A program made the position numbers and the translations under genes. A DNA stretch of 38,450 nt from Pirellulales bacterium (GTDB taxonomy: Bacteria; Planctomycetota; Planctomycetia; Pirellulales; JAGQOS01). Positions 1 to 35,670 of the stretch are shown here, one piece after another. A model generated the notes under the pieces. It ran no database searches, was not told the origin of the DNA, and saw only the letters and a program-made list of their open reading frames with translations. How positions within the stretch are numbered: the stretch's first letter is position 1; the number at the start of each line of letters is the position of its first letter. The stretch spans positions 1 to 38,450 of the forward strand of contig JANQPJ010000318.1 of assembly GCA_028289525.1 (NCBI GenBank), in the 5' to 3' direction.

Positions 1-144
1 ACGACTTTGCAGTTCTCCTGCCCCAGCCCTGGCTCAGCTTGACACCCTAGACTGCCCGATTTATCATCAAGGTTTACTCTTCTTCATCTGTGGTGTGCAT
101 CCTGCGCCTGCCACACAGGCTTATCTCTCTTTACATCGGCTTTC

Positions 145-4820: not shown

Positions 4821-4957
4821 CTGGACAGCGCCACTTTGTTGTGAACTTCTCATCAATACAAGCACGAAGCGAGGGGCGAGTGATTTTGACCGTAAAGTGT
4901 TCACTCGCCCCTCGCTTCGTGCTTGTATTCCATGTCAAAGTGGCGCTGTCCAGCTAG
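4817..4957. repeat. 141-bp double-arm palindromic element
   Basis: Two nested perfect inverted repeats share one centre. The outer arms are 4817-4838 and 4936-4957 (22 bp, CTAGCTGGACAGCGCC...). The inner arms are 4855-4882 and 4902-4929 (28 bp, starting AATACAAGCACGAAGC). The central loop is 19 bases. Related sequence occurs at 9939-9967 and 10277-10341. No transposase is encoded, so it resembles a MITE or REP-like mobile palindrome. In RNA it would form a very stable stem and may end transcripts of the small membrane protein gene. Confidence 0.9.
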
Positions 4958-5079
4958 GCTTTGTTTTAAAACGCATTCGATGCCAACGATTTGAAGGGGT
5001 GAAGCGCCAGCGAAGGAATTTCTGGCAAACGATTCCTTCGCTGGCGCTCCAGACTTCCACGGTTTTAAAACAGTGCCTA
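4955..5079. repeat. 125-bp element with imperfect terminal inverted repeats
   Basis: The ends 4955-4974 and 5060-5079 are inverted repeats with 16 of 20 positions matching. Each contains the palindrome GTTTTAAAAC (4963-4972 and 5062-5071). Inside is a hairpin of the GAAGCGCCAGCGAAGG family (arms 5001-5019 and 5032-5050, one mismatch). It overlaps the last three bases of the preceding palindrome. It is non-coding. Confidence 0.65.
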
Positions 5080-5158: not shown

Positions 5159-5254
5159 CTAGAGCAATTTCGGATCATTCGTAGTCGTGTTTCGTCGGAA
5201 AATCCTGGCAAAAACTAGGTCGCGTCCGCTATGGTAAAGAGCGACTCGCTCTAG
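5159..5254 (+). repeat. 96-bp dispersed element, copy 2
   Basis: The element is bounded by CTAGAGC and GCTCTAG, a 7-bp terminal inverted repeat. It is identical to the inverted copy at 10098-10192 except for two adjacent bases (CTGG versus CCAG) and the end base, and about 70 percent identical to copy 1 at 1584-1679. No transposase is present inside. Confidence 0.9.
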
Positions 5255-9041: not shown

Positions 9042-9998
9042 ATGGCAAACTGGCGTCAACTGGCCAACTGGGGCGTGTTGCGTGTCCCAGTGCCATCCCA
9101 TCTGTGGCAAAGCGATCGGCTTTCTCAGGCGTTCGGCATTCTGATGTATCACCGCGTGGCGCACGAGACACCCGGGGTCGAACCGCCAACCTGGAACGTT
9201 ACCCCGGAACGGTTTCGCCAACAATTGGTCGGCCTGCTCGACCGAGGCTACCAGGCTTGGCCGTTACGCAAAGCGCTCGACTATCACCGGCACGGCCGAG
9301 CGATTCCGCGGCGAACGTTTGTGGTGACATTCGACGATGGGTATGCCAACAACTATCTGCATGCTTGGCCGATTTTGCGTGAGCTGCAAGTGCCGGCCAC
9401 CATTTTTCTGGCCACCGCCTACCTCGACTCGACGGAACCGTTTCCGTTTGACGACTGGTCGGCCGCTGGGTCAGCAGCGTCAGATGCCTGGCGACCTTTA
9501 CGTACCGACGAAGCGACCGAACTGCTCGACGGCGGGCTCGTCGAACTGGGCGCTCATACTCACACGCACGTCGATCTGAGCCAACAGCCTGAGACAATGT
9601 GGCAGGAAATGCTCGCCTCGCGCGACGTGCTGGTCCGCCGATTCGGCTACTCCGACGTCACGTTTGCTTACCCATTTGGCATCCGTCCAGACGGCTTCGC
9701 CGAACGGTTTCACCAGCAGCTTTCAGGCGAAGGGATTCTCTGCACGCTGATGACTGCCGAAGAGCTGGTCACTCCCGACGCACCGCCAACGGCCTGGGGC
9801 CGTTTTACCGCTGGGTCGCTCGATAGCCCACTTACCCTGGCGGCCAAGCTGAGCGGCCATTATTCGGCCTATCGCAATGCCTGGCGCCGAGTGCGTGCTT
9901 GCTGCCGGCAAGGGCAAATCCGTCTTTCAAGCCGAGTCAATACAAGCACGAAGCGCAAGCGAGTGAATTGGAGTTCAAGTCAGTCGTTCCAAAAATGA
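9042..9998 (+). CDS. Polysaccharide deacetylase (CE4/NodB fold), repeat-encoded C-terminal tail
   Basis: This protein is predicted to remove N- or O-acetyl groups from the cluster's polysaccharide. The CE4 motifs are present: TFDDG (residues 96-100) with the catalytic and metal aspartates, HTHTH (172-176) for metal binding, and FAYPFG further on. MYHRVA at 35-40 is typical of the family. The open frame extends upstream to 8748, but that part overlaps the sugar transferase. ATG 9042 has AAGGAAA just upstream and lies 26 bases after the preceding stop, giving 318 residues. The last about 20 residues, with NTSTKRKRV, are translated from the palindromic repeat at 9939-9967, so the original C-terminus was probably replaced by an insertion. 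It is paralogous to the deacetylase at 18409-19377. No signal peptide is visible. Confidence 0.9.
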   Translation: MANWRQLANWGVLRVPVPSHLWQSDRLSQAFGILMYHRVAHETPGVEPPTWNVTPERFRQQLVGLLDRGYQAWPLRKALDYHRHGRAIPRRTFVVTFDDGYANNYLHAWPILRELQVPATIFLATAYLDSTEPFPFDDWSAAGSAASDAWRPLRTDEATELLDGGLVELGAHTHTHVDLSQQPETMWQEMLASRDVLVRRFGYSDVTFAYPFGIRPDGFAERFHQQLSGEGILCTLMTAEELVTPDAPPTAWGRFTAGSLDSPLTLAAKLSGHYSAYRNAWRRVRACCRQGQIRLSSRVNTSTKRKRVNWSSSQSFQK

Positions 9999-10042
9999 CG
10001 ACGGAAAAGCGACGATTTTCCAGGGAAGTGTGTAAAGCAAGT

Positions 10043-10070
10043 GTTTCGCGAGCGGTCACCGACCGCTGTT
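10043..10070 (-). repeat. REP palindrome (AGCGGTC/GACCGCT hairpin plus TTTCGCG)
   Basis: The reverse complement reads CAGCGGTCGGTGACCGCT followed by CGCGAAAC, matching the REPs at 16111-16136 and 35472-35497. Flanking similarity with 16111-16136 extends over about 90 bases. Confidence 0.85.
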
Positions 10071-10097
10071 ACTAACAGCAATCAGTCAATTTGGAAT

Positions 10098-10192
10098 TAG
10101 AGCGAGTCGCTCTTTACCATAGCGGACGCGACCTAGTTTTTGCTGGGATTTTCCGACGAAACACGACTACGAATGATCCGAAATTGCTCTAG
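10098..10192 (-). repeat. 96-bp dispersed element, copy 3 (inverted)
   Basis: The reverse complement is nearly identical to 5159-5254 over the full length; only two adjacent internal bases and the end base differ. Such similarity implies recent spread or gene conversion. Confidence 0.9.
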
Positions 10193-10267: not shown

Positions 10268-10276
10268 CTGAAAATA

Positions 10277-10341
10277 TTCACTCGCTTGCGCTTCGTGCTT
10301 GTATTTTGAGAAATTCACAGCAAGATGGCGCTGGGCAACTA
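10277..10341. repeat. Right half of the 4817-type palindromic element
   Basis: The stretch contains CACTCGC..CGCTTCGTGCTTGTATT, then a short spacer, then a diverged copy of the outer arm (TGGCGCTG..CAACTAG), in the same order as 4902-4957. It therefore corresponds to one half of the double-arm element. Confidence 0.6.
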
Positions 10342-16056: not shown

Positions 16057-16110
16057 GACTATTCGAACCACGAACTCAGTAGTTTCAAATTTACTCGTTG
16101 CTGTTGGTAA

Positions 16111-16136
16111 CAGCGGTCGGTGACCGCTCGCGAAAC
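16111..16136 (+). repeat. REP palindrome
   Basis: CAGCGGTCGGTGACCGCT forms a 7-bp-stem hairpin followed by CGCGAAAC, between the methyltransferase and acyltransferase 2 genes. The similarity to 10043-10070 continues into both flanks, through GCTGTTGGTAA on one side and a CCCTGAAAAACAG-like block on the other. Confidence 0.85.
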
Positions 16137-16198
16137 ACTCGTGTTCTACATTTCCCTGAAAAACAGCCACTTTCCATACCGCAAGGAATTGACCGACC

Positions 16199-20621: not shown

Positions 20622-21469
20622 TGAGTCTACCCAAGGTTCGTTGGCCCCGGCAGCACGATCTGCTGGGCGTTCAAATCAGCGCTACCAATTACGAGGAGGC
20701 CACTACCGCGATCATCACGGCGGCCCATTGCCGGCGTGGAGCCGTGGTCTCCCTCCATCCGGTCCATGCGATTATCGAATGCGTCCGTGATCGAGAACTC
20801 ATGCACAAGGTGAACGCGTTCGATTTGGTGGCCCCCGATGGCCAACCGGTGCGGTGGGCGCTGAATCGGCTGCACGACGCCAAGCTGGAAGATCGGGTTT
20901 ACGGGCCGCGCCTGATGCTGCGGGTGTGTGAACAGGCAGCTCGCGAAGGCGTGAAGATTTTTCTCTATGGCAGCACTGACGAGGTGTTAGAGAAGCTTCA
21001 GAAGAACTTACAGGAACGTTTTCCGGAACTGGAAATCGCCGGCGCGGTGTCGCCTCCTTATCGGGCACTGACGGACACGGAAGATGCTAAAATCGTTCGT
21101 CAAATCAATGAGAGCGGCGCCGGCCTGGTGTTTCTGGGGCTCGGCTGTCCCAAGCAAGATCACTTTGCTGCCGATCATCGAGATCAAATTCAAGCGGTCC
21201 AACTGTGTGTCGGGGCGGCTTTTGACTTTCACGCCGGCAACAAAAAGACCGCTCCAGAGTGGATGCAACGTCGCGGGCTGGAATGGTTGTTCCGGCTTGT
21301 TCAAGAGCCAGGACGTTTGTGGCGGCGCTATTTGTTGACCAACACGATGTTTGTGGTGCTGCTGGCATGGGCGCTGCTTCGCAAAAATGTGTGTGACTGG
21401 TTCGATGTTGGCGGGAAACGTGTTGAAAAAAGCAGCGGCCGGTGGCCGCTCGCGAAACGGAGGAATTAA
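20618..21469 (+). CDS. WecG/TagA/CpsF family glycosyltransferase (GT26), REP-encoded C-terminal tail
   Basis: The 283-residue protein is a GT26 enzyme, which adds a sugar such as ManNAc or its uronic acid to a lipid-linked acceptor. Family landmarks are DLVAPDGQPVRWALN (catalytic Asp region), DRVYGPRLM, FLYGSTDEVLEKL, VFLGLGCPKQD, CVGAAFDFHAG, APEWMQRRGLEWLFRLVQEP and RYLLTN. A hydrophobic patch near the C-terminus (about 245-257) may attach it to the membrane. The start overlaps the GT4 stop by ATGA. The last about 13 residues, KSSGRWPLAKRRN, are read from the REP element at 21427-21509, which also supplies the stop codon. It is the last gene of the cluster. Confidence 0.93.
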   Translation: MMSLPKVRWPRQHDLLGVQISATNYEEATTAIITAAHCRRGAVVSLHPVHAIIECVRDRELMHKVNAFDLVAPDGQPVRWALNRLHDAKLEDRVYGPRLMLRVCEQAAREGVKIFLYGSTDEVLEKLQKNLQERFPELEIAGAVSPPYRALTDTEDAKIVRQINESGAGLVFLGLGCPKQDHFAADHRDQIQAVQLCVGAAFDFHAGNKKTAPEWMQRRGLEWLFRLVQEPGRLWRRYLLTNTMFVVLLAWALLRKNVCDWFDVGGKRVEKSSGRWPLAKRRN

Positions 21470-21509
21470 CGCATCAACGTTTCGCGAGACAGCAACGCTG
21501 TCTGCTTTT
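21427..21509 (+). repeat. REP doublet, left flank of the RAYT gene
   Basis: It contains hairpin 1 AGCGGCC-GGT-GGCCGCT, then CGCGAAACG, complementary to CGTTTCGCG further on, then hairpin 3 AGACAGC-AAC-GCTGTCT, closed by AAAGCAG/CTGCTTT. The layout is the same as 22143-22228, with compensatory changes in hairpin 3. It overlaps the end of the WecG-like gene. Confidence 0.93.
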
Positions 21510-22093
21510 CACTCCACAAAAGACTCTACAAATGACCAATGCTGCGCCGGCTTCCCTTCTTTGATCGGATTCATCTCAACATATTGAATTGCACGTCGTA
21601 TCTCATCCGACGTATTGAGAAACGCCTTCCAACCAGAACGTTGGCTCCAAGGCGATCGTGCATCCGGCAGATGTCCACCAGGATCCAATCCATCGCGACG
21701 AAGTTGCTTTGTCGCCTCCCCCTTGAGCTGGCCCATCACGTATTCGATCTTGTAACGACAACGTGGCAACACCGCATGCACATGCTCTGGCAAGATCGCA
21801 CAGGCATAAAATCGAAAGCCGGAGCGTTCAATCGCTTGCTTAAATCCCTTGGCCACGCTGAGTGCCTGCTGGCCTGAAAACGAGACCAGATTTCGCTCTA
21901 ACGATCGTTTGGTGATTTGGCGCTGTTGATGATCGTGTGGTTTGTGTGCCACCGAACGCCGGGAATCGGTTTTAGTCGCCGGGCCGAAGTGTAGTAGCTC
22001 CCAAGCGCGTATAAACTTTGACCACGAGCCGCGTGGATCATTTGGCAACCAAAATCCATAGGTTGTCAAGATGATGTGATAGCCGCGAACCAT
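21509..22093 (-). CDS. REP-associated tyrosine transposase (RAYT, TnpA_REP, IS200-like Y1/HUH)
   Basis: This 194-residue protein has the HUH motif HVH in ILPEHVHAVLP (about residues 101-111) and the catalytic tyrosine in IRRAIQYVEMNPIKEGKPAQ near the C-terminus. The N-terminal GYHIILTTYGFWLPNDPRG block is typical of RAYTs. RAYTs are domesticated single-strand DNA transposases that cut and join REP hairpins. ATG is at 22091-22093. The protein is full length for the family, with no frameshift, so it may be active. No other transposase is in the window. The gene is convergent with the exopolysaccharide cluster and is bounded by its own REPs. Confidence 0.92.
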   Translation of the reverse strand: MVRGYHIILTTYGFWLPNDPRGSWSKFIRAWELLHFGPATKTDSRRSVAHKPHDHQQRQITKRSLERNLVSFSGQQALSVAKGFKQAIERSGFRFYACAILPEHVHAVLPRCRYKIEYVMGQLKGEATKQLRRDGLDPGGHLPDARSPWSQRSGWKAFLNTSDEIRRAIQYVEMNPIKEGKPAQHWSFVESFVE

Positions 22094-22142
22094 GCGCGTG
22101 ATTCTAATGGCTCGTGTTAAGAGTTGGTAGTCCTGTCACTAG

Positions 22143-22228
22143 TAAAAAGCAGCGGCCGATGGCCGCTCGCGAAACGGAGGAATTGATTTATCAACGTTTC
22201 GCGAGCCGGCAACGCCGGCTGCTTTTCG
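22143..22228 (+). repeat. REP doublet, right flank of the RAYT gene
   Basis: Hairpin 1 is AGCGGCC-GAT-GGCCGCT, followed by CGCGAAACG with complementary CGTTTCGCG, and hairpin 3 GCCGGC-AAC-GCCGGC. The stem of hairpin 3 differs from that in 21427-21509 on both arms but pairs fully, so the structure is conserved. Confidence 0.93.
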
Positions 22229-28678: not shown

Positions 28679-28865
28679 AGTTTACCGCCAGTGTGCCCCC
28701 CAAAAGAAACCACACGAGAAAGCCGCCACCAAAAATTACTGCGCCCCTCGCCGAAAAAATGTGGCCAACACACAAGTGTGCAACCCCACTGTGACATCAT
28801 GCCACACGTGTTCCCTCCCTAAATTCAAATGTCAGTCGGTCTAAATTTCGCGTATTGATCAGCAG

Positions 28866-28891
28866 CAGCGGTCGATGCCCGCTCGCGAAAC
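28866..28891 (+). repeat. REP palindrome, slightly degenerate
   Basis: CAGCGGTCGATGCCCGCT followed by CGCGAAAC. One stem pair is lost compared with the copies at 16111 and 35472. The downstream flank (CTTGAAAAACAG) also matches the 16111 copy. Confidence 0.8.
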
Positions 28892-28957
28892 ACTTGTTTT
28901 TACATTTCGCTTGAAAAACAGTGATTTCCGGATTCTCGTTTTTGGAACGACCGAATG

Positions 28958-30127: not shown

Positions 30128-30207
30128 TGTTCTCTAGTCTAAACCTGGATGCAAGCTGGCAATCATCATGCTTCAGGAGAACTGCCGAGACATCTATTTC
30201 GGAAAAA

Positions 30208-30226
30208 CAGCGGACGGTGGCCGGTG
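30208..30226 (+). repeat. Degenerate REP remnant
   Basis: ACAGCGGACGGTGGCCGGT, preceded by GGAAAA, resembles the REP family, but the stem pairs poorly and the CGCGAAAC tail is missing. It lies between the HtrA-like gene and the giant surface protein gene. Confidence 0.4.
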
Positions 30227-30326
30227 TTTTTCGACTTATCATGCTCTGCGGATGGGCGGTATACACTCGGTGGGGCGAGAAATGTGTGAACCCCAAGTTC
30301 GCCCCATGGCGAGATCAAGTTTCGAC

Positions 30327-35093: not shown

Positions 35094-35670
35094 CTCATTT
35101 TATCCATACTACCAACAATCCCTAGAATTCCTAGTCTTCGCATTATTTTGCTTCTCTGGTTGGTCATTGCTGAGAAATGTTGGGGCGAAGTTTTCTCTAC
35201 AAGGCGCGCGGCAAAATCCACACCTAAGGGGGAGTCGGTCGGACCGGCTATCACCAGCCAAACATCACTTGGCTTTCGATGTTAGGCAGTCCGATCCAGT
35301 CGTCCGAAGATCGTGGTGAAGGCACGATCAGATCCGTGAAGCCACTTGCCGGTTCAGAACTCCGCAAGAAGAGTGGCCACGCACGATACGCCAGAGAATA
35401 TTGTGCCCCCACATTTCCGCTAACAGCAGGAAATGGCGCAGGAGAATTGCAAAGTCGTTTTTTTGAAAAAACAGCGGTCGGTGACCGCTCGCGAAACGGC
35501 TGAACTTTTCTGTTTCGCGCTTTGGCCGCCGGCCGCTGCTTTGGTGGAATCGACGACTTTGCAATCCTCTCTGGGAAATGGCGGGGAACACTTGCCAAGA
35601 CAGGCAGGGCGTCAAAAGTTTCGGTGCAGAATATCAACCGGATAACGCAACACAAGCTTCTCGTGAAGCC
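35094..35670. other. Intergenic region with one REP
   Basis: These 577 bases lie between the porin gene and the giant protein gene, both on the minus strand. Frames seen here are short, and one of them reads through the REP, so I accept none as a gene. The REP at 35472-35497 is the only structured element I can support. The promoter for the giant protein should lie near 35020-35200. Confidence 0.45.
35472..35497 (+). repeat. REP palindrome
   Basis: CAGCGGTCGGTGACCGCT followed by CGCGAAAC is identical over the core to 16111-16136 and preceded by a TTTTTTGAAAAAA stretch. Confidence 0.85.

Follow-up and report, generated by a model that had tools for sequence, protein, structure and literature searches.

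A REPtron-like locus of a planctomycete RAYT clade and the probable spread of its REP inside small inverted-repeat elements

REPtrons have been described in E. coli, Stenotrophomonas and Marinomonas (TnpA-REP groups 2 and 3; PMC8266576). The locus presented here resembles them in several respects: an HUH-Y1 gene that is present once and has inverted REP pairs on both sides, a hairpin with a 5' foot, the Y---NP motif and, for the modelled fold, 4er8 as the best PDB match. However, the foot of those systems is GTAG, whereas here it is GTTTCGC or GTTTAGC, the feet lie inside the doublet, and other residues occupy the positions of Q95, E100, H101 and R104, which are among those reported to contact GTAG in TnpA-REP (PMC6006769, PMC8266576). 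Atypical feet are on record for subclass 2.6 and class 3 (PMC6006769). The TnpA-Y1 class 3 of Planctomycetes and Acidobacteria shares with our locus the phylum, an atypical foot without GT[AG]G and a W[TA] motif, but it combines Y---EQ with a CnGA foot (PMC6006769), whereas the clade studied here has Y---NP, with N175 invariant in 102 sequences, and GTTTAGC. We rejected a class 3 assignment of the RAYT because it carries Y---NP and its foot reads GTTTMGC. Planctomycete REPs with GTAG tags and tyrosine transposases of R. baltica have also been mentioned (PMC3733652).

The inverted REP doublets of Pseudomonas fluorescens, the REPINs (PMC3116915), are likewise dispersed in hundreds of copies, whereas here most doublets lie inside longer elements with terminal inverted repeats (TIRs) and flanking duplications. 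Pseudomonas REP units joined to unrelated stem-loops are known, and the "double inverted repeats" of P. putida and P. fluorescens are degenerate REPs of this kind in hundreds of copies (PMC3733652, Fig. 8B). Those repeats flank the transposase gene; in contrast, the RAYT-side copies described below lack extra ends, and duplications are present. Bacterial MITEs (NEMIS, ERIC, RUP and others) are, like our elements, noncoding, 70-300 bp long and equipped with TIRs of 15-30 bp and flanking duplications, but the interior here is a RAYT-cognate REP doublet. In the literature outside subscription journals, we found no account of a foot of the GTTTAGC type, nor of MITEs that carry a RAYT-cognate REP and are flanked by target duplications.

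The RAYT gene and its REP doublets

The window, that is, the whole stretch of DNA analysed, comprises 38,450 nt of the forward strand of contig JANQPJ010000318.1 from Pirellulales bacterium GCA_028289525.1 (Table 1), an assembly of 4.04 Mb in 425 contigs that is 95.5% complete. Its RAYT gene encodes 194 aa and appears intact. The protein joins an HUH motif with a single catalytic Tyr in a Y---NP setting, and the residues concerned (H104, H106, Y171, N175 and P176) are kept in 100-102 of 102 clade sequences. It matches the NCBIfam family REP_Tyr_transpos (NF047646) with an E-value of 2.5e-12 and 46.9 bits, below the curated cut-off of 80, and each of the 49 clade members examined also matches this family (best E-value 3.4e-17). 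The score against Pfam Y1_Tnp (21.7 bits) lies just under the cut-off of 23. An AlphaFold model from a 49-row alignment reached a pLDDT of 85.5, and the top PDB match of this predicted structure is 4er8, the structure of TnpA-REP from E. coli in complex with a REP hairpin. Residues 11-60 form a low-confidence part of the model. An N-terminal block outside the HUH core (residues 12-25, YGFWLPNDPRGSWS) is nearly invariant across clade members.

The gene lies between two 84-nt direct repeats that share 89% identity and the same orientation. Its TGA stop codon (21509-21511) overlaps the end of the left doublet, and 50 nt separate its ATG from the right doublet, which is upstream of the start. Both doublets consist of a left hairpin, a central CGCGAAAC/GTTTCGCG stem, a right hairpin and an outer AAAAGC/GCTTTT stem, and their single-stranded DNA folds beat all shuffles (z -5.2 for the left and -7.1 for the right doublet). 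A first-pass annotation, made from the sequence alone, had described an apparently intact HUH/Y1 gene with HVH and Tyr present between same-orientation doublets that share a three-hairpin layout, and our analysis confirms both points. It had also proposed asking whether the RAYT is the only one, and we found a single copy of this clade in the genome. Its description of the locus as self-contained is not supported: the gene is single-copy and gives no sign of moving as a unit. We saw no duplication around the locus or its doublets in the flanks, and no Rfam match within the window.

Read 5' to 3', a REP unit is GTTTCGC, a G, a 7-bp hairpin with a 3-nt loop, and GCTTTT; the foot is not of the GT[AG]G type, and paired units face each other with the feet inside. 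Across 26 genomic doublets, 99.0% of cells are paired and seven pairs vary on both sides, with 36 both-side changes against 11.9 in shuffles. Compensatory stem variants include GGTC/GACC, GGCC/GGCC and GACC/GGTC among genomic copies, and AGACAGC/GCTGTCT and AGCCGGC/GCCGGCT in the RAYT doublets.

Table 1. Positions of the features in the 38,450-nt window
Feature	Position	Strand	Basis and remarks
Right arm of another type-A element	1..25	none	contig start; assembly breaks in the repeat
Third inverted-repeat family, GAAGCGCCAGCGAAGG	1478-1567 and 4986-5059
Second inverted-repeat family, AATACAAGCACGAAGCG...	4855-4929, 9939-9968, 10276-10305
Inverted repeat of 95 nt	5159-5253 / 10098-10192		copies 98% complementary and separated by 4.8 kb; directly adjoins a type-B element
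Type-B element	9980..10103	none	CAGTCGTTCCAAA-type ends; one REP with its foot at 10043; matches 16080-16173 in inverted orientation (82%)
Type-B element	16076..16195	none	REP at 16111; degenerate right end with an approximate coordinate
REP doublet, 3' side of RAYT	21427..21510	none	repeat comparison and fold; AAAAGC-(AGCGGCC GGT GGCCGCT)-CGCGAAAC-20 nt-GTTTCGCG-(AGACAGC AAC GCTGTCT)-GCTTTT; feet inside
RAYT (REP-associated Y1 HUH transposase)	21509..22093	minus (22093 to 21509)	ORF, NCBIfam match, AlphaFold fold match; HVH at residues 104-106, catalytic Tyr171 (YVEMNP), W149-SQRSG-W155 loop
REP doublet, 5' side of RAYT	22144..22227	none	same layout; right stem AGCCGGC/GCCGGCT is a compensatory version
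Type-B element	28832..28954	none	REP at 28866; flanks repeat AATGT
Degenerate type-A arm and one hairpin	30174..30240	none	foot lost; end approximate
Open reading frame, 1588 aa	30327-35093	minus	four internal repeats of ~870 nt that share 65-73% identity; resembles a repetitive surface protein
Type-A element	35439..35572	none	doublet inside CAGGAGAATTGCAAAGTCG/CGACTTTGCAATCCTCTCT; flanks AGGAAATGGCG / GGGAAATGGCG, 10 of 11

Feet and foot recognition across the RAYT clade

A genome scan and searches of the order and phylum yielded 117 clade relatives, nearly all planctomycete and mostly 43-63% identical. GTTTAGC occurs in the flanks (±250 bp) of 55 of 101 clade RAYTs, against 4 of 101 controls of twice the length. 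Foot-plus-hairpin units beside the 117 RAYTs number 193 in 57 kb, compared with 23 in 236 kb of distal sequence, and are hence about 35 times denser. They share the geometry of the window's REP (foot, G, 7 bp and a 3-nt loop) or show a foot, 7 bp and a 4-nt loop. The clade's feet comprise GTTTAGC, GTTTAAC, GTTTCGC, GGTTAGC, ATTTAGC, GTGTAGC and others, of which only the rare GTGTAGC and GCGTAGC contain GTAG. Foot type tracks the protein tree (25 changes against 48 when shuffled; 0/200), and the GTTTAAC-foot RAYTs form one clade (support 100/99). A covariance model of foot and hairpin, scored in 397 genomes of the order (our own and 396 others), matched 15 of 56 genomes with a RAYT of the clade and 11 of 341 without (Fisher p 7e-8; p 3e-7 with our own genome left out). 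Perfect pairing in one alignment (A4) was set aside as circular evidence, its rows having been selected for perfect stems. One genome (G090) has at least 18 matches to the model and no RAYT of the clade was found in its 89% complete assembly; either the gene was lost or it is missing from the assembly. This genome shares its genus with a RAYT-bearing one (G047).

These data support a REPtron-like locus, belonging to a planctomycete RAYT clade with a GTTTAGC-type foot. The pairing of RAYT and REP is observed here, as is its age: judged from sequence comparisons, it is ancient in the phylum. The GTTTCGCG block that the first-pass annotation had singled out is present, but it is a local version of this phylum-wide foot.

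In a profile alignment with 4er8, W94-QPRF-W99-EH..R104 of E. coli aligns to W149...W155-KAFLN of the window's RAYT. At the positions of Q95, E100, H101 and R104, the clade mostly has A/G/S, K, V and D/N, respectively. The GTAG-contacting residues are thus not kept, the Q95 position being filled by A/G/S/T/N and the R104 position by D/N/E/S, which agrees with a foot other than GTAG. The window's RAYT and the group of L042, both with GTTTCGC feet, share W-SQR[SK]G-W, a loop one residue longer than in nearly all others; this link between loop and foot is a post hoc lead with too few independent contrasts. A simple code in which the Q insertion specifies a CG foot could not be established: in L087 the foot is GTTTCGC although the insertion is absent, L092 and L096 combine the longer loop with GTTTAGC, and only three contrasts are independent (sign test p 0.5). 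The data do not firmly reject a grouping of the window's RAYT with L042 (AU p 0.053), whereas a single clade of all six CG-foot rows is rejected (p 0.0006). Among 392 genomes of the phylum, no CG-foot RAYT was found beyond the window's.

Dispersed REPs and composite elements

Pattern searches for foot plus hairpin, with one mismatch allowed, returned 588 REP units in the genome, and at least 225 doublets match CGCGAAAC-N8-24-GTTTCGCG; control patterns returned 0 in both cases. A flanked RAYT gene is thus found together with genome-wide REPs. These copy numbers are lower bounds, since many contigs end inside dispersed elements. The doublet family is absent from the 396 other genomes sampled from the order, which gave at most 3 matches each, like the controls. 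The exact family is therefore neither missing from the rest of its genome nor abundant in relatives lacking the RAYT, the two outcomes that the first-pass annotation had named as speaking against it. The recurrences that it listed at 10043, 16111, 28866 and 35472 are all real and lie outside the main open reading frames. However, only the last is a doublet, with a degenerate right side, and the remaining three each consist of one REP within a type-B element.

Such repeats might be kept for a host function, such as transcription end, mRNA stability or gyrase sites, with the mechanism of spread being secondary. The window's copies sit between main genes, and the stems of the genomic doublets are perfect and covary, as for a structure under selection. 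On the other hand, the absence of the family from 396 of 396 other genomes of the order argues against a conserved function, and the compensatory changes may have arisen before dispersal, in a small number of subfamilies. We regard this explanation as improbable.

Reading 67 doublets with their flanks revealed that most belong to longer elements. At least one CAGGAGRAYTGCAAAGTC arm, scoring above the 99th percentile of a null drawn from the window, accompanies 54 of 62 dispersed doublets and neither of the two RAYT doublets. In the resulting type-A element, the doublet lies inside this outer inverted repeat (arm consensus CAGGAGAACTGCAAAGTC), over 122-139 bp with tight clusters at 122-125 and 132-134 bp. 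The 32 complete copies carry TIRs of 18-20 nt, as MITEs do, and 10 of them are flanked by direct duplications of ~10 bp (n=10, at least 9 of 10 matching), against a null mean of 0.00 (0/500) when flanks were re-paired at random in 500 shuffles. The excess lies at n=8-12, and these repeats correspond to the target-site duplications of MITEs; examples are GGCTCGACAC (L213), TGCTTACCAG (L192) and GCTTGCGAGC (L017). Two thirds of the copies show no clear duplication (perhaps owing to age or boundary error). The type-B element has (T)CAGTMGTTCCAAA ends and a single REP in ~124 bp, and its copies probably carry duplications of 5-6 bp: at n=6, 7 of 11 complete elements, a sample of 11 only, show one (null mean 0.97, maximum 5). 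Elements were sampled via their REP, so that REP-less MITEs with the same ends would be under-counted.

That the elements are composite and that duplications flank them is observed here. DDE-type transposition characteristically duplicates its target; to our knowledge HUH/Y1 enzymes do not, as is established for IS200/IS605. Hence, most dispersed copies probably spread as MITEs with TIRs, target duplications and a captured REP, not by RAYT. The dispersal by RAYT that the first-pass annotation implied does not fit most dispersed doublets, which are internal parts of TIR elements with ~10-bp duplications, nor the RAYT doublets, which carry no such ends and whose AAAC-to-GTTT spacer is 20 nt long, compared with 14 nt in 58 of the 67 doublets read. 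The corresponding REPIN model, in which RAYT copies doublets round the genome and the outer arms simply belong to a longer REPIN, draws on the strong REP-RAYT association across the phylum and on the dispersed inverted REP pairs known in Pseudomonas (PMC3116915). We nevertheless consider it unlikely, as ~10-bp flanking duplications are unexpected of HUH/Y1 transposition, the RAYT-side doublets lack arms, and the same REP sits inside two different end types. Alternatively, a RAYT reaction of an unusual kind that duplicates its target is a possible source of the duplications.

The composite elements could also be mobilised by a TIR-using, TIRYT-like RAYT, since TIRYTs and TIR repeat families have been described (PMC3733652). 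The genome has three more full-length Y1 genes (C158, C384 and C419; open frames of 226-236 aa) that might encode it, but no REP was found in their fetched flanks, and we rejected them as REP owners. Moreover, we know of no TIRYT that duplicates its target, and we hold this alternative to be very improbable. A short Y1_Tnp-like open frame of 116 aa near a contig end (L035, G000:C42:87-368) has one REP ~300 bp away. Sequence resembling the AATACAAGCACGAAGCG family adjoins a REP doublet on another contig (C25, L203), and none occurs close to the genome's other Y1 genes.

A proposal for the spread of the REP

The reading that we favour, with a probability of roughly 60%, is that the locus is a REPtron of the planctomycete RAYT clade whose REPs were captured in TIR elements, and that the spread of these as MITEs explains most of the ~590 units. 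RAYT would bind its own REP in folded, single-stranded form (GTTTCGC, G and the 7-bp hairpin with a 3-nt loop) and, by analogy with E. coli TnpA-REP and its GTAG hairpins, would cut and rejoin it. Type A (122-139 bp) would have arisen when one small TIR element captured a doublet, and type B (~124 bp) when another took up a single REP. Both MITEs would have been moved in trans by a target-duplicating transposase, presumably of DDE type, leaving ~10 bp for type A and 5-6 bp for type B. The ~200 kb of the genome that were read contained no autonomous transposase with ends of either type. Residual action of RAYT on dispersed copies is conceivable, and RAYT may still be acting on them; the ~8 of 62 dispersed doublets without an arm could be RAYT products. 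A more elaborate version, possible but rather doubtful, holds that two unrelated DDE-type MITEs independently captured and spread a RAYT-cognate REP whose hairpin was maintained for the HUH enzyme, and that the W149-W155 loop reads the foot, both GTTTCGC lineages with WSQR[KS]GW differing there from all GTTTAGC/GTTTAAC relatives.

REP abundance is usually taken as the footprint of RAYT transposition, whereas here the duplications point to other machinery. If another machinery spread most copies, abundance alone is no evidence of RAYT activity, and the abundance of REPs in this genome is accordingly weak evidence for it. Finally, the planctomycete clade supplies ~100 naturally occurring combinations of a RAYT and its foot, spanning several foot types, so that the choice of a REP by its RAYT is testable by swapping one short loop.
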